This document shows, piece after piece, positions 797 through 58,908 of a DNA stretch of 63,866 nt (position 1 is its first letter; the number at the start of each line of letters is the position of its first letter). Position numbers and translations under genes: made by a program. Source of the stretch: a virus. The notes beneath the pieces are model-generated. The model was not told the origin of the DNA. It saw only the letters and a list, made by a program, of their open reading frames with translations, and did no database searches. The DNA is taken from positions 1 to 63,866 of IMG/VR virus record IMGVR_UViG_3300037421_000079, one strand, 5' to 3'.

Positions 797-856
797 GTAT
801 CGGTAGAGTATGTGGCATGCCTATCCGGTTTAGACACACAGTCCTACATCTTGTGT

Positions 857-1024
857 TCAGCCGATTTCGCTCTCTCGATAAGCCAGCGCGACTGTTTGAG
901 CGAACAAAGCCAACGCAAGCATGCGACTTACTTCGGATGGCGCGTTAGCCTTTCCATCTTCGGCGATTTCGTGGAGTTTTTCGGCAACGCGCCCCCAAAC
1001 TCTAGCATGGTGTGAGGCATTCAT
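857..1024 (-). CDS. Passenger ORF of cassette copy 1, unknown function
   Basis: A 55-residue protein beginning MNASHHARVWGRVAEKL, mostly helical, with no family I recognise. An upstream ATG at 1045 is rejected because it overlaps the likely -10 box. The ATG at 1024 has GGGAGGTAAGG just upstream and sits at a sensible distance from a promoter in the element end. It fills most of the mobile cassette and reads in the same direction as the host operon. Confidence 0.6.
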   Translation of the reverse strand: MNASHHARVWGRVAEKLHEIAEDGKANAPSEVSRMLALALFAQTVALAYRESEIG

Positions 1025-1045
1025 CGTCCTTACCTCCCTCAACAT

Positions 1046-1075
1046 TTAGTAGGTCTCAGCGTTTGTGTGTGTTAA
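1046..1075 (-). promoter_or_regulatory. Promoter built into the terminal repeat of cassette copy 1
   Basis: Reading leftward, TTAACA at 1075-1070 lies inside the terminal inverted repeat. TACTAA follows at 1051-1046 with 18-bp spacing, and then the ribosome-binding site of the passenger gene. The cassette therefore seems to bring its own -35 element within its end. This is sequence-pattern evidence only. Confidence 0.5.
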
Positions 1076-1325
1076 CCGGATAGGCATGGTATGTGGGATA
1101 TCGCTTCTCGGCTTCCTCGCGCGCCTTTGTCTCGATGTCGACTCTCGCCCGGAACCCAACGAGGTGATCCATCAGCCAAGCAACACCTTCTAAAAAATAT
1201 ATCTGCTCGGCTCTTTGCTTGCTGATTGGCGGCAAAATCTCGCGCGGCGACACTGCACGACCCTCACGAGCATCGAACACATAATCGTCGTCGAGCTTAT
1301 TTCGTTTAAGTCCTTGCTCGCTCAC
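1056..1325 (-). CDS. Small conserved phage-type protein with C-terminus altered by insertion
   Basis: An 89-residue acidic/helical protein (GTG start at 1325 overlapping the polymerase TGA as GTGA). Central residues ILPPISKQRAEQIYFLEGVAWLMDHLVGF suggest a helical hairpin. The last residues (HAYPVNTHKR) are encoded by the terminal repeat of the element ending at 1088. With the insertion removed the reading frame would end four codons beyond the duplicated target site, so the original C-terminus was slightly different. Function unknown. It is translationally coupled to DNA polymerase. Confidence 0.65.
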   Translation of the reverse strand: MSEQGLKRNKLDDDYVFDAREGRAVSPREILPPISKQRAEQIYFLEGVAWLMDHLVGFRARVDIETKAREEAEKRYPTYHAYPVNTHKR

Positions 1326-3922: not shown

Positions 3923-6184
3923 GTGCCTACAGCCGACAATCCACTGCTTGAAGCCGCGCTCCAGTACGCCGCTCGCGGCTGGAAAATTTTTCCTCTAGTT
4001 CCGCGCACCAAGCGGCCCGCCATCCGGGGGTGGCGGCAGAAGGCTACCAGCGACCCGGACCAGATCGAGCGGTGGTGGGGCGCGCGGCCGGACTACAACG
4101 TCGGGCTGGCGACCGGCGAGTCGTGCCTGGTGGTGCTCGACCCGGACGGCCCCGAGGGGCTGGCCGAGTTGCACCGGCTGGTGGGCCTGCACGGGCGCCT
4201 GCCGCGCACGCTGGCGAGCCGGACGCCCGGGGGCCATCACTTGCTGTTCCGCGGGTCCGGCGTGCGCTCCACGGCGCGCGGAGACCTGCACGTGCGGGGC
4301 GAGGGCGGGCTGGTGGCGCTGCCGCCGTCGATCCACCCGAGCGGAGTGGCGTACCGGTGGGTCGACGCCAGCTGTCCGATCGCCGACCTGCCGGCCTGGG
4401 TGGGGGCGTGGCGGGCGAGCCTGGGCGGCAGGGTCGAGACGGGACCGGACCTGGGCGCCTTACCGGCTCACCTCGTAGGGCTGCAACGCCGATCGCCCGC
4501 CCGGATCGGTGGAATGTGGTCGCTCCACGAAGAAAGTCGAATACGATCGGCGCTGCAAAGAGTTCCGGCCGATTCCTATCAATCGTGGCTCGAAGTCGGA
4601 ATGGCGCTGCACAGCCTCGGATGGAGTCGGTCAGACGGCACCGATATAGGCTTGGAAATCTTCGACAATTGGTCCGCGACGTGCAGCGAGAAATACAGCC
4701 AGGCGGCAGCCGAGGAAAAGTGGAGCTCATTCGAGCAATCCGGCAGGAGCGGCATACAGATAGGCACTTTGTTTCATCTCGCCGAGGCGCATGGGTGGCG
4801 AGGTGAAGTATTAGTTGATAATAATGGTCACAAGCCATTGAGCCAACAACAAGAAAGCGAGGTGATCCCACATGACCGAATCGGGTCGCATAATGCCCAG
4901 CCCCACGGAGGAGTGCCGCCCCCCGTGGGGCTCTTCGCTGGGGCGCAGGAGGCCGCTGGCGCGCTCGAGCCGGCAGGGGCACTCAACGGGGCGCACGCGC
5001 TGCCGGCCGAACTGGCGGCCGCGCCAGCGGCGGGAATCGTGTTCCCGGACGTGACCCAGAAGGGGAAGCCGGCTGGGACGCGCCACAACGCCATGCTGGC
5101 GATCGAGGGGCTGGGGATCGAGTGCGAAGAGGACACGTTCCACGAGGCGTTCGTGGTGGGCGGGCACTCGCTCGGGCGCCTAGTGGGGGAGATCAGCGAC
5201 AAGGCCATCCACCAGCTGCGCGACCTGATCCGGCGCGTGTTCGGCTTCGAGCCGGGCGCCCAGAACGTCCGGGACGCGGCCGAGACCCTGTGCGTGCAAA
5301 ACCCGTTCGACCCGGTGCTGGACTACCTCGACTGCCTGCGGTGGGACGGGGTGCGGCGCATCGACGCGTGGATGGCGGACTATCTCGGGGCGCCACGGGA
5401 CGAGTGGAGCGCGGCGGTCGGGCGGTTGATGCTGGTCGCCGCGGTCAGGCGCGCGCGCCAGCCCGGCGCCAAGTGGGACCACGTAGTAGTGTGGGAGGGG
5501 CCGCAGGGCGCCGGCAAGTCCCACGTGCTGGAGACGCTGGCAGGCGAGGAGAATTTCAGCGACATGCGGATACTGGGGCGGTCGGAGGAGCGCCAGCACG
5601 AGGCAGTGCGGGGGGTGTGGATATACGAGATCGCGGAACTCGCGGGGATGAAGCGGGCCGAGGTCGAGCACATCAAGGCCTTCGTGACGCGGAAGAAGGA
5701 GAGCACCAGGACGGCCTACGCGCACTACAAGACCCACGACCGGCGCCGCTGCATATTCGTGGCGACCACGAACGAACTGCACTACCTGAAAGACGACACC
5801 GGCAACCGACGATTCTTGCCGATCCGCACGGGAGTCATAGATTGGGCCGCAGTAGCGCGCGACCGCGACCAGCTGTGGGCGGAAGCGGTCGAGGCCGAGC
5901 AGGGATACGGGCCGCTGGTGCTGCCGCACGACGTGCGTTCGCGGGCGAGCGCCGAGCAGGAATCGCGGCTCGTGCTGGACGATTGGCGGGACGTAATCGA
6001 AAGGTGGATAGGGGATAAAACAGAGACCTCGATCGGCGAAACGGTGGTCGGCGCGCTCCACATGCAGGTGCGGGAAATCGACCAGATTTGTTCCACGAGG
6101 ACCGGAAGGATTTTACGGCAACTCGGATTCACGCAATATCGCAAACGCGACGGGGAAAGCCTGTCGTGGCGGTTTAGGCGCTAA
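3923..6184 (+). CDS. Primase-polymerase / VapE-like helicase fusion
   Basis: A 753-residue replication protein. Residues about 5-190 form a bifunctional primase-polymerase domain (GWKIFPLVPRTKRP, then VVLDPDGPEGL, GGHHLLFRGSG and the late GGLVALPPSIHPSG). Residues about 195-300 resemble a PriCT-type linker domain (ALQRVPADSYQSWLEVGMALHSLGW). Residues about 450-690 form a virulence-associated-E/SF3-like helicase with Walker A EGPQGAGKSH near residue 525 and the IYEIAEL and IFVATTNE segments. The GTG start is weakly supported by AAGGGG. It probably primes and unwinds at the repeat region that directly follows it. Confidence 0.92.
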   Translation: MPTADNPLLEAALQYAARGWKIFPLVPRTKRPAIRGWRQKATSDPDQIERWWGARPDYNVGLATGESCLVVLDPDGPEGLAELHRLVGLHGRLPRTLASRTPGGHHLLFRGSGVRSTARGDLHVRGEGGLVALPPSIHPSGVAYRWVDASCPIADLPAWVGAWRASLGGRVETGPDLGALPAHLVGLQRRSPARIGGMWSLHEESRIRSALQRVPADSYQSWLEVGMALHSLGWSRSDGTDIGLEIFDNWSATCSEKYSQAAAEEKWSSFEQSGRSGIQIGTLFHLAEAHGWRGEVLVDNNGHKPLSQQQESEVIPHDRIGSHNAQPHGGVPPPVGLFAGAQEAAGALEPAGALNGAHALPAELAAAPAAGIVFPDVTQKGKPAGTRHNAMLAIEGLGIECEEDTFHEAFVVGGHSLGRLVGEISDKAIHQLRDLIRRVFGFEPGAQNVRDAAETLCVQNPFDPVLDYLDCLRWDGVRRIDAWMADYLGAPRDEWSAAVGRLMLVAAVRRARQPGAKWDHVVVWEGPQGAGKSHVLETLAGEENFSDMRILGRSEERQHEAVRGVWIYEIAELAGMKRAEVEHIKAFVTRKKESTRTAYAHYKTHDRRRCIFVATTNELHYLKDDTGNRRFLPIRTGVIDWAAVARDRDQLWAEAVEAEQGYGPLVLPHDVRSRASAEQESRLVLDDWRDVIERWIGDKTETSIGETVVGALHMQVREIDQICSTRTGRILRQLGFTQYRKRDGESLSWRFRR

Positions 6185-49834: not shown

Positions 49835-50296
49835 TTAGGCTTCTCCTGCTAGTTCATGGATGAGCTTGGCCGCCGCCTGGCGGTTGCCGGGGACGTTGTA
49901 CCAGCGATTCAGGCCGCTGGGGTGGGGGACGCGGTGCCACTCGGTGCCGAGGCACTCTCGGTGCGCGCCCAGGACCGGCACGTCGGCGGGGAGCCGCAGT
50001 GCCCGCCACACCTGCGCGCCCAGGACGATCGTAACGCGGCCCGTGGCGACTCGGTGGAACTCTGCCGCCGCCTCGCGCGCCGCCGCGGCGCTCCAGGCTC
50101 GTCCCGCCACCAGGTTGCGCCGGTCGTACGCGTTCAGGTAGTCGTGCGCGCAGTCGGCTTCCCAGCGCGCGTCGTGCTCGCACAGCATCGAGTAGATTCG
50201 GTGGCCGGTGCACCCGTCGGGCCACGGCACGAGCGCGTCGTCCGGGTTGCTCGACAGCGGGTTGTTCATGCCTAGGAGGATGGGCCTAGCGCTCAC
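49835..50296 (-). CDS. Uracil-DNA glycosylase-superfamily-like protein
   Basis: A 153-residue protein from a GTG overlapping the upstream stop. PILLGMNNPLSSNPDDALVP resembles UDG motif 1 and VPHPSGLNRWYNVPG resembles the motif 2 HPSxxNR loop; VTIVLGAQVWRAL is the core strand. The catalytic Asp/His of classic UDG is not clear, so activity could be altered. Fits a role in base excision or protection of phage DNA. Confidence 0.7.
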   Translation of the reverse strand: MSARPILLGMNNPLSSNPDDALVPWPDGCTGHRIYSMLCEHDARWEADCAHDYLNAYDRRNLVAGRAWSAAAAREAAAEFHRVATGRVTIVLGAQVWRALRLPADVPVLGAHRECLGTEWHRVPHPSGLNRWYNVPGNRQAAAKLIHELAGEA

Positions 50297-50697
50297 GTCC
50301 GCCTCACGTTTACGCGCTGGAACCACCCGATGGTGACGCCGGGGGGCGGTGCGCCGGCATGGTCCTGCATGTACTGTCGCGTTGCCTCTTTCTGTATCGA
50401 TGCCAGCAGCATCTCGTTGCCGTAGGTGTCCCAGTTCTCGTTGACGAAGTCGAGGTACTTCTCGCGGTCCTCGATCTTGAGGTTCATGATGGTCGAGATG
50501 TAGGCGGTCCCCGAGTCGGCCCGCACGCTGTCGATCTTCTGCTGCAGCATGAACGCCTGCAGCTGGTCCTCGATCTCGGACAGCCGGTCCTTGGCGCCCT
50601 TGAGGTGCTCGCCGAACCGCTTGGTCTCGGCCTTGACCCAGTCATCGAGACGGATGTGCTCGGCCACGAGGGAGTCGGCGGTCGGTTCGTTGCTCAT
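50293..50697 (-). CDS. Coiled-coil replication/recombination accessory protein
   Basis: A 134-residue protein. A long helix (WVKAETKRFGEHLKGAKDRL, then SEIEDQLQAFMLQQ) is followed by a compact domain (SVRADSGTAYISTIMNLKIE) that resembles phage proteins adjacent to ssDNA-binding factors. ATGA overlap with the zinc-finger gene. Exact function unknown. Confidence 0.65.
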   Translation of the reverse strand: MSNEPTADSLVAEHIRLDDWVKAETKRFGEHLKGAKDRLSEIEDQLQAFMLQQKIDSVRADSGTAYISTIMNLKIEDREKYLDFVNENWDTYGNEMLLASIQKEATRQYMQDHAGAPPPGVTIGWFQRVNVRRT

Positions 50698-50900
50698 CGT
50701 CGCAGCACCGCTTCGACTAGCTGTTTCGCTTCTGGTTTAGCCGGCCAGCTTCCAGGCCAGATTAGTTTATACTCGTCGATCAGGCGCTCGCATGCCATAT
50801 CGACTGTCCATTTACAAAACTTGCATTGGACATAATCCTGATCTTTGCAGTGCTTTGGGCCAATACAATAAAATATCACGTGCTTATCCGGTTGACACAT
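50694..50900 (-). CDS. Small zinc-finger protein whose start is now inside the mobile cassette
   Basis: A 68-residue protein. YCIGPKHCKDQDYVQCKFCKW provides four cysteines for zinc. Its present ATG (50900) lies in the terminal repeat of the element at 50879-51195, so MCQPDKH is encoded by the element. Without the insertion the frame would start MIFYCIGPKHC at an ATG overlapping the helicase stop (ATGA). The cassette has thus replaced the native start with an in-frame one; the target-site copy also leaves GTG-ATA-TTT in frame. Confidence 0.7.
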   Translation of the reverse strand: MCQPDKHVIFYCIGPKHCKDQDYVQCKFCKWTVDMACERLIDEYKLIWPGSWPAKPEAKQLVEAVLRR

Positions 50901-51195
50901 ACAGCCCTACATCTTGTGTCAGCGAATGCGCCACGCGATGACCATGCATCGCCAGCCCAGCCGCAGCATTTCTCTAGCGTTCATGCGGAATTGGACGTGA
51001 GTTTCGGGATTGAGGCTCGAAACTTTGAACATTCCGCCGCCGTAGCTGATTTTTGGGCCAGTAGGGTGCCAAAAAAGCGTCGCATCCTTCGGCCACGGAA
51101 TGTCATGCTCAGCGAAAGCGGCTCTGAGGTTTGCTTCCCGTTGCGTCAACATCTAGTGGGTCTCCCTGTTTGTGTGTGTCAACCGGATAAGCACG
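50879..51195. mobile_element. 317-bp non-autonomous IS1595-type cassette (MITE-like), copy 2
   Basis: Ends begin CGTGCTTATCCGGTTGACACA and match as inverted repeats at 24 of 25 positions. The flanks are a perfect 8-bp duplication AAATATCA (50871-50878 and 51196-51203). The element carries one small ORF (50919-51152) and no transposase. About 45 bp at each end resemble cassette copy 1 (for example CCTACATCTTGTGT near the left end). It split the coupled helicase/zinc-finger junction. Confidence 0.93.
50919..51152 (-). CDS. Passenger ORF of cassette copy 2, unknown function
   Basis: A 77-residue protein, MLTQREANLRAAFAEHDIPW..., ending MVIAWRIR. It has no relation to the ORF of copy 1 except the identical start context (TGTTGA at the ATG). 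GGGAG lies about 9 nt before the ATG. It would be transcribed with the helicase operon; the TTGACA of the element end (51182-51177) is too close to the ATG to give a normal leader. Confidence 0.6.
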   Translation of the reverse strand: MLTQREANLRAAFAEHDIPWPKDATLFWHPTGPKISYGGGMFKVSSLNPETHVQFRMNAREMLRLGWRCMVIAWRIR

Positions 51196-51200
51196 AAATA

Positions 51201-52805
51201 TCATATCTCCCCCTTCCTGACCATCTCCAGCAGGACGCCCTGCATCGACGTGTTGGTCTCCAGCCGCCGGTATATCTCGCGCTCCAGGGGATTGCTGACG
51301 ATCTGGTATATCGTCGTCGGGTACTTCTGACCTGGTCGATGTACGCGCTTGTTCCCCTGTATCCACAACTCGCCCTTCTCGGTCGGCCCCGCCCAGATCA
51401 CTGTATCGGCTACCACGAACTCGTTGATGCCGTGCGCGGTGGTCTGAGGGTCACACAGGATAACGCGTATCTTGTCATCGTTGGCGAATCGCTGGATTAC
51501 ATCGGGTCTCTCCTTGGCGGGGATTGCGCCGTTGATCGACTCACAGCCCCATCGTTTCGATAATCGCATCTTCAAGATATTCAAGACGCTTGTCAAGGGG
51601 ATAAAAATGACCACCTTCCGGGTGGTGCTGTCAATGATGGCCTCGATCTCCCGCATGCGAGGCTCGGCGTCTACGGTGTGGTACGTATGATCGTCATCAT
51701 AGATCGCCCCGAGCGATATTTGCAGGAACTTGCCACGTGCCACCCCCTCGTTGACGGGGTCGATCGTCTTGCCCGACTTGAGGACGATTTGCAGGTCGCG
51801 CTTGAGCGTGGCCATCTGCTGCTTTTGCTCGGCTGTCAGCTCCACCGAGCGCATCTGCATCGTCATTTCTGGCCCTTGCCAGACTTGAGCTATGTCGAAT
51901 CGAATAGCCGGGATCAACAACTGACGTGCTGCCTCATACCCACCTTTTTTGGGGAACCAGCGAAACGAGAACTGATTGGGCTTGAACATTGTCTCTTGTT
52001 GGAATGTCTTGAATGACTTACCGTGTGCGTTGTTCATCAATTTGGCAAGTCCGTAGGCGTCGGTCGGGGCCTGTGGAGTGGGACTGCCGGTGATCTCCCA
52101 CAAATAAGGGCGCTTGCCGATGATCTCGCGCGCCAGGCGGTGCCGCTTGGTGCTGGCGTCGCTATAACCTGATGCCTCGTCGACGATTACCAGCTTGATG
52201 TCCTTGCGCTCGGCCAAGTCCTTGGAGAACCCATCGAGGTCGAAGCGCTTGCGGGTGTGTGCGCCCACGCCCACACCGTCAAAGTTGATGATCGAGAAGT
52301 CGGCCTTCTTGGCCAATAGCGTGCGGCGTTTCTCGGCCGAACCAGTGAGAATCTCGAACGATCGCTTTCCCAGAAAATTTTTCCACAGCGCCTGTGCCCA
52401 CACATCCTCCAGGATCGTGAGCGGCCCGATGATGAGCGCTCGAAAGTCCTTGCCGAAGCCGCGCATCAAGAAGTCGGCGGCCCACAAGGCAGAAAGCGTT
52501 TTCATCGTACCTGGATCGCTAAGGTTGAAACACCTTGGGTGTAAAACCTGAAAATTCGCCATCACCCGCTGGTGCGCCAGAGGCTTGCGGCCGGGCTCGA
52601 TCGGCCAGTCGTAGTTGGCGTCCGTCATCACGGGCGCGACCGGCAGGTCGAAGTGCCTGAGTATCTGGGAATTGCGCAGCGTGCGGGGCACAGCGATGTA
52701 CTGGCCGTTGACGGCCTTCGCCTCCGGGATCGCCTGCAGGACGAAGGGAGACTGGCTCTTATAGATGAGCAGATTCCGAGTCTGGTCGTGGTAAAAGTTA
52801 GACAT
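51201..52805 (-). CDS. SNF2-type DNA helicase/translocase
   Basis: A 534-residue SF2 ATPase. LAHQRVMANFQ (Q-motif region), LSDPGTMKTLSAL (Walker A near residue 97), LVIVDEASGYSD (motif II), WEITGSPTPQAP (motif III), KVVIFIPLTSVLNIL (motif IV), VILCDPQTTAHGINEF (motif V) and NKRVHRPGQKYPTTIYQI (motif VI with RxxRxGQ) all appear in order. ATG 52805 is chosen; it overlaps the methyltransferase end by 8 bp. Probably remodels replication or recombination forks. Confidence 0.9.
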   Translation of the reverse strand: MSNFYHDQTRNLLIYKSQSPFVLQAIPEAKAVNGQYIAVPRTLRNSQILRHFDLPVAPVMTDANYDWPIEPGRKPLAHQRVMANFQVLHPRCFNLSDPGTMKTLSALWAADFLMRGFGKDFRALIIGPLTILEDVWAQALWKNFLGKRSFEILTGSAEKRRTLLAKKADFSIINFDGVGVGAHTRKRFDLDGFSKDLAERKDIKLVIVDEASGYSDASTKRHRLAREIIGKRPYLWEITGSPTPQAPTDAYGLAKLMNNAHGKSFKTFQQETMFKPNQFSFRWFPKKGGYEAARQLLIPAIRFDIAQVWQGPEMTMQMRSVELTAEQKQQMATLKRDLQIVLKSGKTIDPVNEGVARGKFLQISLGAIYDDDHTYHTVDAEPRMREIEAIIDSTTRKVVIFIPLTSVLNILKMRLSKRWGCESINGAIPAKERPDVIQRFANDDKIRVILCDPQTTAHGINEFVVADTVIWAGPTEKGELWIQGNKRVHRPGQKYPTTIYQIVSNPLEREIYRRLETNTSMQGVLLEMVRKGEI

Positions 52806-53964
52806 TGAAAGCTGCCACGCGCCGTCGAATATCATCCTGTGACTTAGAATCATTCTCGGCTACGATAGTCCGAAATCCTTCTTCGTACGCCGCTTGTGCA
52901 GTTGTACCAGTGCCGCCAAAAGGATCGAGCACCACGCCGTTTGGTGGCGTCACTAGGCGCACGAGCCAGCGCATCAGCGCGAGCGGCTTAATAGTCGGGT
53001 GCTTGGAACCGCCGCGCTCTGCCTTGCTAGCCTTCGCGCAGTAATAAAAGCGATCGACGCCGACCAACTCGCGCCGCTGTCCCGGCAGCATCGCGAAATT
53101 AGTACCGCCGTGCTCGGTGTAGCGTGTATCGGCGGTAGCCTCGCCATCGCGAAAAGTATTGAAGAACCGTGCAGCGCTGCCCGCATCCCCGCGCTTAGCG
53201 AACGCCACGCGACCGAACTCGCCGTAGCACGCGGTGTTCTCATCACCCGTGCGCGATGGCTCTGTGCCGCGCACATCACCCTGCTGTCCCTTCGATTTAG
53301 GAAACCCACCCAAAACTTCGTCGCTGCCATCGTGCACGAGGTTCGTGGGCCAGCGACCAAGGTCCGTAGTACCAATCGCTTTTGAGGATTGCAACGAACC
53401 GTCGACACGACCCGAGAAAGCGTTACCAGCGTACTCGACACCATCGCGCAGCGGATGAACTTCTCGCTTCGGACGGCCTTGTGCTTCGACGCGACACGCG
53501 TCGATGTTCAGTGCGCCAACTCCGTGCGTCGCAAGATTATTTTCAAACGTACCATCGAGCGGTTTGCGAGCAAGCGCGATCGGCTCAGACGCCGGTTTGA
53601 GCGTCGTGCCCCACCCGTCCCACGTGCCATCGAAATTCTTGCCCTTCGGCATGCCCTGTCCGTGCAACCACTGCACCATGTCGAATATTTCGAAGCCAGC
53701 ATCTTCAATCGCGCAACCAAGACGGTGGTACGTGCGCGTTCCAGAAAAAGCCAAAAGATATGCGCCGGGTTTCATTGTTCTTAAAATTGCCTTCCAATAA
53801 AGAGCGCTTGGAACGCCGTGATCCCAGAGCTTGCCCATGAAATTTAAGCCGTAAGGAGGATCAGTAATGGTGGCGTCAATACATGCTGGACGCATAGATG
53901 AAAGCATCTCAAGGCAATCTCCTGGATATAGGTAGATGCGATTTTTTATGAGAATCTCAATCAT
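52798..53964 (-). CDS. DNA (N4-cytosine/N6-adenine) methyltransferase, beta class
   Basis: A 388-residue protein. ATITDPPYGLNFMGKLWDHG carries the DPPY catalytic motif near residue 36, and GVVLDPFGGTGTTAQAAYEE the SAM-binding FGGTG motif near residue 345. That order (catalytic before SAM site) defines the beta group. No cognate nuclease is adjacent, so it is an orphan methylase likely protecting phage DNA from restriction. A central target-recognition region spans about 110-280. Confidence 0.92.
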   Translation of the reverse strand: MIEILIKNRIYLYPGDCLEMLSSMRPACIDATITDPPYGLNFMGKLWDHGVPSALYWKAILRTMKPGAYLLAFSGTRTYHRLGCAIEDAGFEIFDMVQWLHGQGMPKGKNFDGTWDGWGTTLKPASEPIALARKPLDGTFENNLATHGVGALNIDACRVEAQGRPKREVHPLRDGVEYAGNAFSGRVDGSLQSSKAIGTTDLGRWPTNLVHDGSDEVLGGFPKSKGQQGDVRGTEPSRTGDENTACYGEFGRVAFAKRGDAGSAARFFNTFRDGEATADTRYTEHGGTNFAMLPGQRRELVGVDRFYYCAKASKAERGGSKHPTIKPLALMRWLVRLVTPPNGVVLDPFGGTGTTAQAAYEEGFRTIVAENDSKSQDDIRRRVAAFNV

Positions 53965-57861: not shown

Positions 57862-58908
57862 TCACCCATGACCACTAACCGTAGGGTGCTGCCACGTTCC
57901 CTTGTAGAGCCCGTCATAGGTCGGGCTTTCGCCGTTCGCGCCGATGCCGAGCAAGCTGCGAAAGGCGTTGAACGGGTAGAAACGGCGGTTGAAGCGAAAG
58001 GCGAACTCGTTGAGGTAGGCTTGCAGATGCTTCGGGCTGACCGCGCCGTGGTGCGTGCCTTGCAGCCACGCCTTCAGGTTCGAAAAGACCAAGTGGACAA
58101 TGGGCAGATATTCTTCGGCCACGTCGGGCTTGGAGGCTTCGACCACCGGCAGATGCTCGTACCCGCGATCGGCAAGCGAATTGTACCCGCCCCAAGCGTC
58201 CGTGATGACCATCGCGCCGGGGTAGACGGCGGATTCCACAAACTCGCACAATGCCTTGGCGCCCCGGTTCGCGGCGATATCGAGCCGCAGCCGGCCAGCG
58301 TAGCGCCCGCCGCGCCGTTCCGGCTTGTCGCCCTTCTTGGGCGGGCGCTGGCGAACCTCGACGGCTGCGACCACGAGCGTCTTTTCGTCGGCATGGACGC
58401 CCTTGCCTTCGCCCCGGACCACCCCGCCGATGTACGTCTCGTCAATCTCGACGTGGTCGCGCCGGCCAAGGTTGCCGCCGATCATGTCGCGATCCGGCCG
58501 GACCATGCCGGCCCGCAGCTTGTGGAGGATTTGAAAGGCCGTCTCGTACCGGGACAGGCGAAGCTGCCGCTGGAACTGCACCGCCGACAGGCCGGGCGTC
58601 ATGCTCGATACGAGGTAGGCGCCCCAAAACCATACGGCGAGCGGCGTGTGCGTGCGCTCCATGACGCTTGCGGCGGTCAAGGCCGCGTCCCGGCGGCAAG
58701 CCTTGCATCGCAGCACCCCCGGCCGATTTTCGAACCGGTAGGGCTCTCCTTTGACGTGGCACGCCGGGCACGCGAAGCCCTTGGGCCACTTGGCGCTTTC
58801 CAGCCATCGGGCGCAGGCCGCGTCGTTCGGAAAGAGCCGCTGGAACTGCGGCAGCGAACGCGGGAACGGCAGGTGTTCCCATTGGAGCACGTCGGCGTGC
58901 GGGGGCAT
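57862..58908 (-). CDS. IS1595-family transposase
   Basis: A 348-residue protein. The N-terminal zinc ribbon has FACPACHVKG...RCKACRRD (CxxC pairs near residues 47 and 71). The ISXO2-like DDE domain has VEIDETYIGG (first Asp), AMVITDAWGGYNSL (second Asp), then HLVFSNLKAWLQGTHHG and HLQAYLNEFAFRFNRR, the characteristic C-terminal signature of this family. It should recognise the CRTGCYTATCCGGTT ends of its own element, and probably those of the two cassettes. Confidence 0.95.
   Translation of the reverse strand: MPPHADVLQWEHLPFPRSLPQFQRLFPNDAACARWLESAKWPKGFACPACHVKGEPYRFENRPGVLRCKACRRDAALTAASVMERTHTPLAVWFWGAYLVSSMTPGLSAVQFQRQLRLSRYETAFQILHKLRAGMVRPDRDMIGGNLGRRDHVEIDETYIGGVVRGEGKGVHADEKTLVVAAVEVRQRPPKKGDKPERRGGRYAGRLRLDIAANRGAKALCEFVESAVYPGAMVITDAWGGYNSLADRGYEHLPVVEASKPDVAEEYLPIVHLVFSNLKAWLQGTHHGAVSPKHLQAYLNEFAFRFNRRFYPFNAFRSLLGIGANGESPTYDGLYKGTWQHPTVSGHG

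Follow-up and report, generated by a model that had tools for sequence, protein, structure and literature searches.

The 317-bp element E2 lies at positions 50,879 to 51,195 of the window, which is the whole 63,866-nt viral stretch analysed (IMGVR_UViG_3300037421_000079). Judging from its sequence, E2 is very likely a non-autonomous, phage-borne gene cassette that was moved in trans and inserted across the stop/start overlap of two phage genes, translation of the downstream gene then probably restarting by re-initiation.

E2 is a transposase-less IS1595-type cassette with its cargo on the minus strand. On reading the sequence, its terminal repeats are near-perfect, CGTGCTTATCCGGTTGACACA and its reverse complement being found at 50,879 and 51,195. 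One repeat is downstream of the cargo (50,879 to 50,902, minus strand) and the other upstream of it (51,172 to 51,195, plus strand). Within the whole window the 18-mer TGTCAACCGGATAAGCAC has two exact copies and two with at most three mismatches, against 0.03 expected, and the repeat pair is not due to chance. The original prediction of a 317-bp element with one duplicated octamer was confirmed base for base: identical copies of AAATATCA (minus strand TGATATTT) occupy positions 50,871–50,878 and 51,196–51,203. The helicase is unharmed by the insertion, because its stop codon (TGA, 51,203–51,201) is held intact inside the right copy of the octamer. When E2 and one octamer are removed, the minus strand reads GGGGGAGATATGATATTT, in which the predicted ATGA overlap is restored (GGGGGAG-AT-ATGA-TATTT). 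In this pre-insertion reading, the helicase TGA overlaps an ATG at 51,204–51,202, which is followed by ATA TTT TAT TGT (MIFYCIGPKHC...). The two replacement start codons that had been proposed are also present. The downstream repeat encodes ATG TGT CAA CCG GAT AAG CAC (MCQPDKH, 50,900–50,880, with the ATG at 50,900–50,898) in frame with the 68-aa ORF at 50,694–50,900, and the GTG created at the junction (50,879–50,877) is in the same frame and stands where the old ATG used to be. Translation from the native ATG, with its strong ribosome-binding site, would now yield a 31-aa ORF (51,109–51,204, minus strand), which reads into the cassette and passes over the cargo start in another frame.

Three minus-strand genes make up the interrupted region: an SNF2-type DNA helicase (51,201–52,853; Pfam SNF2-rel_dom and Helicase_C), the putative small CxnC (zinc-finger-like) ORF of 68 aa, which now reads from the ATG of the repeat and whose native start is MIFYC, and a Gp157-like gene (50,293–50,697), a conserved downstream neighbour with a weak Pfam match. 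At its other end the 68-aa ORF overlaps the start of the Gp157-like gene as ATGA. A single-sequence search found no helicase relatives, and those described here came from an alignment-based search. The closest of them, L153 (60%), L154, L034, and L157, have a terminal ATGA shared with the next gene, preceded in L153, L154, and L034 by a G-rich stretch. Because these relatives end in ATGA-type overlaps and the small ORF shows the same arrangement with the Gp157-like gene, the ancestral helicase/small-gene junction was, on sequence comparison, very probably an ATGA overlap. In most relatives the Gp157-like gene and a 370-aa gene follow. Immediately behind the helicase, different relatives have different genes. 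By the original prediction, uninterrupted relatives should not differ in gene order, and in part they do: the order of helicase, Gp157-like gene, and next gene is kept, but the 68-aa gene, for which our searches found no relatives, is absent from all helicase relatives compared. Since the genes found behind the helicase differ and none corresponds to the 68-aa ORF, an exact empty site of E2 is undocumented, and none was found in the viral contigs searched. In L034, a relative of the window phage, an IS1595 element is situated later in the same operon (4,270–6,090), between the Gp157-like gene and the homologue of the 370-aa gene.

The E2 cargo ORF of 77 aa (MLTQREANLRAAFAEH..., 50,919–51,152, minus strand) encodes a conserved phage protein with relatives in five viral contigs (L239–L243). 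In L239 the gene is free-standing: it lacks terminal repeats and has an N-terminus (MTSSHEQAENLRRAF...) and a ribosome-binding site of its own. Searches of Pfam, PHROGs, and NCBIfam gave no domain match for the cargo, and no match to it was found in isolate phages. Together with the small size of the element, the missing domain matches would suit a plain MITE carrying a chance ORF. This explanation is nevertheless highly improbable in view of the cargo relatives, which are 84% (the free-standing L239 copy) and about 50% identical, and of a dN/dS of about 0.04. As judged from these comparisons, the cargo is a genuine captured phage gene under purifying selection, because it stands free in L239, dN is 0.061 and dS 1.39 between the two copies, and 31 of their 39 differences fall at third codon positions. 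In L240 a related cassette that holds the cargo occupies another insertion site (83% identity over 186 bp from the repeat, the far end being lost), and cassettes of the E2 type have therefore moved.

E2 would have been moved in trans by a phage-borne IS1595-family transposase, and a likely partner is that of E3, an intact, autonomous element in the same genome (57,846–59,562, minus strand, 1717 bp). E3 has the features of the IS1595 family, namely a DDE transposase with a zinc ribbon, terminal inverted repeats, and the target duplication CATCAAGA on both sides. Its transposase (348 aa, 57,862–58,908, minus strand) matched PF12762 (1.4e-32) and PF12760 (1.1e-11), both above the curated cut-offs, and NF033547 with 182.6 bits (cut-off 75). 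The ends of the two elements differ by a few bases (CTTATCC and CACG in E2, CCTATCC and CATG in E3), and E3 may therefore not be the helper of E2. E3 also carries two overlapping passenger ORFs of 114 and 80 aa. A second cassette, E1 (816–1088, minus strand, 273 bp, target duplication GTATGTGG), shares nearly the same outer 40 bp with E2 and carries an unrelated cargo ORF, 857–1045 or starting from 1024, where a strong Shine-Dalgarno (SD) sequence precedes the ATG.

The repeat was present in at least 119 IMG/VR stretches and the transposase at 25 viral loci. Pairing of facing ends with matching octamers gave at least 90 distinct insertions that share these ends, have 8-bp duplications, and come almost entirely from environmental viral contigs, at least 40 with a transposase and at least 50 without; all viral repeat counts are a sample among the matches listed. 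Bacteria hardly carry the transposase: a search confined to close relatives covered 84,980 species and found six loci, which lie in MAG contigs. In 200 genomes of one host's family, three had close copies, all within the earlier set, and there was one distant match (42%). The transposase search of isolate phages yielded only three distant matches. One 117-kb viral contig, IMGVR_UViG_3300050119_000104 (L001, L008, L009, L011, and L046), contains many copies of elements of 235–241 bp, together with longer elements whose ends match, a transposon load unusual for a phage.

To place the insertions relative to genes, at least 83 with enough flank were compared with matched random sites; genes were called with a simple codon-usage caller, and the start of the 68-aa gene was not exactly placed by it. 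Among the matches listed, the octamer fell on a gene boundary in 14 of 83 cases, where 4% was expected (p=5e-6), and inside a gene in 28 of 83 (34%), where 59.5% was expected. E2 is a typical junction insertion, whether caused by target choice, selection against damage, or both. Pfam recognised four N6_N4_Mtase proteins, one D12 methyltransferase, and one NADAR protein among the 42 cargo proteins of the matches listed, and PHROGs added PAPS reductase and nucleoside deoxyribosyltransferase families. Most cargos in this set, that of E2 included, belong to no known family.

On the sequence, the cargo of E2 would take its start codon from the leader of the cassette, CACTAG-ATG-TTG-ACG (51,144–51,158, minus strand): upstream of the part that E2 and L239 have in common, the ATG and TTG of CACTAGATGTTGACG are the sole start codons. 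The core of this motif, CTA(A/G)ATGT, 33–43 nt from the end, was found in 18 of 50 cassettes and in none of 40 transposase elements; of 1810 internal windows, 4 hold it, all these counts being among the matches listed. In 11 cassettes of this sample an ORF of 62 aa or more begins at its ATG (MLT.., MLM.., MLI.., MLR..), and just one pair of these 11 proteins is similar. As far as the sequence goes, the leader of E2 supplies the ATG of its captured cargo, and we infer that this ATG is used. In other cassettes a stop follows the leader ATG directly, and the motif therefore probably also serves a further purpose, perhaps as a binding site. A ACTAGATGT-like motif stands on both sides of the cargo, in the same orientation, in the cassettes L063, L056, L069, L141, and L064. 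These copies form imperfect direct repeats around the cargo and could be a putative binding site or the trace of a cargo exchange.

The original prediction also regarded the new in-frame start as something gained by the downstream gene. One version of this idea sees in the repeat an adaptation for replacing the lost start, the zinc-finger protein being made with the MCQPDKH extension by direct initiation. Besides the in-frame ATG and GTG of E2, there is the fact that an outward ATG is present in one frame at 167 of 180 ends among the matches listed, nearly always at the tip. Likewise, the closed frame met the gene in only 1 of 13 insertions near gene starts among the matches listed. Outward from the repeat, two of the three frames are open and the third is closed by TAA or TAG, which terminates 9 of the 45 longest ORFs among the matches listed. 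Another outward frame has an ATG, GTG, or TTG upstream at 119 of 180 ends, while junction-made starts like the GTG of E2 are rarer (3 of 180 ends), both among the matches listed. Over the at least 90 elements, an ATG, GTG, or TTG precedes any stop in 312 of 540 end-by-frame combinations (58%), so the in-frame start of E2 is not improbable; with the phase of the gene left to chance, about 58% of insertions would give it one. Close to gene starts, in-frame starts at first seemed to be in excess; this was rejected, as interior insertions have the same frame bias: among the matches listed, frames 0/1/2 were met 5/1/7 times near gene starts and 11/6/8 times inside genes. The deficit of the closed frame near gene starts is not significant, either against the interior of genes (1/13 vs 6/25, p=0.38) or against one third (p=0.07), among the matches listed. 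Moreover, transposase binding constrains the end sequence anyway, and the SD pairing at the new starts is at background level. An adapted repeat is therefore unlikely. Insertion of a cassette at the ATGA junction stands, as do the in-frame starts, whereas the start as a special gain does not: as a sequence feature it is generic to the repeat family, a by-product of the repeat end.

Pairing with the SD sequence, computed over 20 nt upstream, was −10.8 kcal/mol for the lost start and −8.2 for the cargo start, and only −3.4 and −3.3 for the new ATG and GTG. For comparison, a value of −3 is reached by about 46% of random 20-mers, so that ribosomes are expected to initiate only weakly at either codon by themselves. 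The cargo stop (50,921–50,919) is situated 18 nt upstream of the ATG and 39 nt upstream of the GTG, which makes re-initiation the likelier route. The small gene, having lost its strong-SD, helicase-coupled ATG when E2 inserted into this co-directional operon with a staggered 8-bp duplication, would then restart at the repeat ATG or the junction GTG, most likely by ribosomes that have just finished the cargo. The same ribosomes would keep the ATGA-coupled Gp157-like gene translated. The weak pairing at both new starts could also mean that E2 silences the small gene, that the in-frame codons are never used, and that the Gp157-like gene is translated independently. A 68-aa gene for which no relatives were found may indeed be dispensable. 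However, the small gene keeps an intact frame, and the conserved Gp157-like gene, with its own weak SD sequence (−3.3) and the ATGA overlap, would be expected to be lost to the phage if translation upstream ceased. We consider silencing possible but clearly the less probable outcome, and continue to favour re-initiation after the cargo.

Several known systems resemble E2 in part. In the account given in PMC3129680, IS1595 insertion sequences with passenger genes are 'transporter IS' (Siguier et al. 2009), and E3 is like them in its transposase domain, zinc ribbon, 8-bp duplications, and passenger genes beside the transposase. As far as that account goes, E1 and E2 differ in having no transposase, and E3 in that the close relatives of its transposase are mostly in viral contigs. 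The same source describes mobile insertion cassettes (MIC231 and relatives; De Palmenaer et al. 2004), for which a cognate transposase is presumed to act in trans. Like these, E2 has no transposase, has the ends of a known IS family, and carries a gene. Compared with what is described there, E2-type elements have IS1595 rather than IS231 ends, are phage-borne, contain a shared leader motif with the cargo start, and hold single small genes packed about 30–45 nt from each end. The mycobacteriophage elements MPME1 and MPME2 are about 440 bp (439 bp) long, with inverted repeats and a conserved 123-aa ORF, and leave an unusual 6-bp addition at one of their ends (PMC3029335, PMC4351075). E2 is likewise an ultra-small phage mobile element with inverted repeats and one ORF, while E2-type elements make clean 8-bp duplications and carry diverse cargos. 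Identity with an MPME was ruled out for E2 by its 317 bp, clean 8-bp duplication, and 77-aa cargo. In integrons, ORF-11 of attI1 and the short ORFs of attC provide translation signals for the neighbouring gene, a function that has been tested (PMC8876359). E2 is similar in that a recombination-site sequence supplies translation signals to a neighbour and a stop is supplied across the junction; those sites belong to a site-specific integrase system, whereas E2 is a transposon. What is unusual in the present family is the diversity of its one-gene cargos, the leader-supplied start in about 11 cassettes, and the enrichment at gene boundaries.

More tentatively, the transposon parts may form a standard translation adaptor, in which the leader ATG starts the captured gene, the TAA/TAG of the repeat stops it, and the ATG at the tip (TAAGCATG) restarts the host gene; we consider this rather doubtful. 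If true, phage operons could take up single genes at their stop/start junctions and suffer little from it.

Phage genomes are generally regarded as poor in insertion sequences, and a literature search of openly readable papers found no description of IS1595 cassettes in phages. The present data point to one IS1595 lineage with its one-gene cassettes being spread over many uncultured phages of soil and water, widespread and little noticed. Such cassettes would offer a testable route by which small accessory, possibly anti-defence, genes pass between phages, and E2 an opportunity to learn how a phage tolerates an element placed between two translationally coupled genes.
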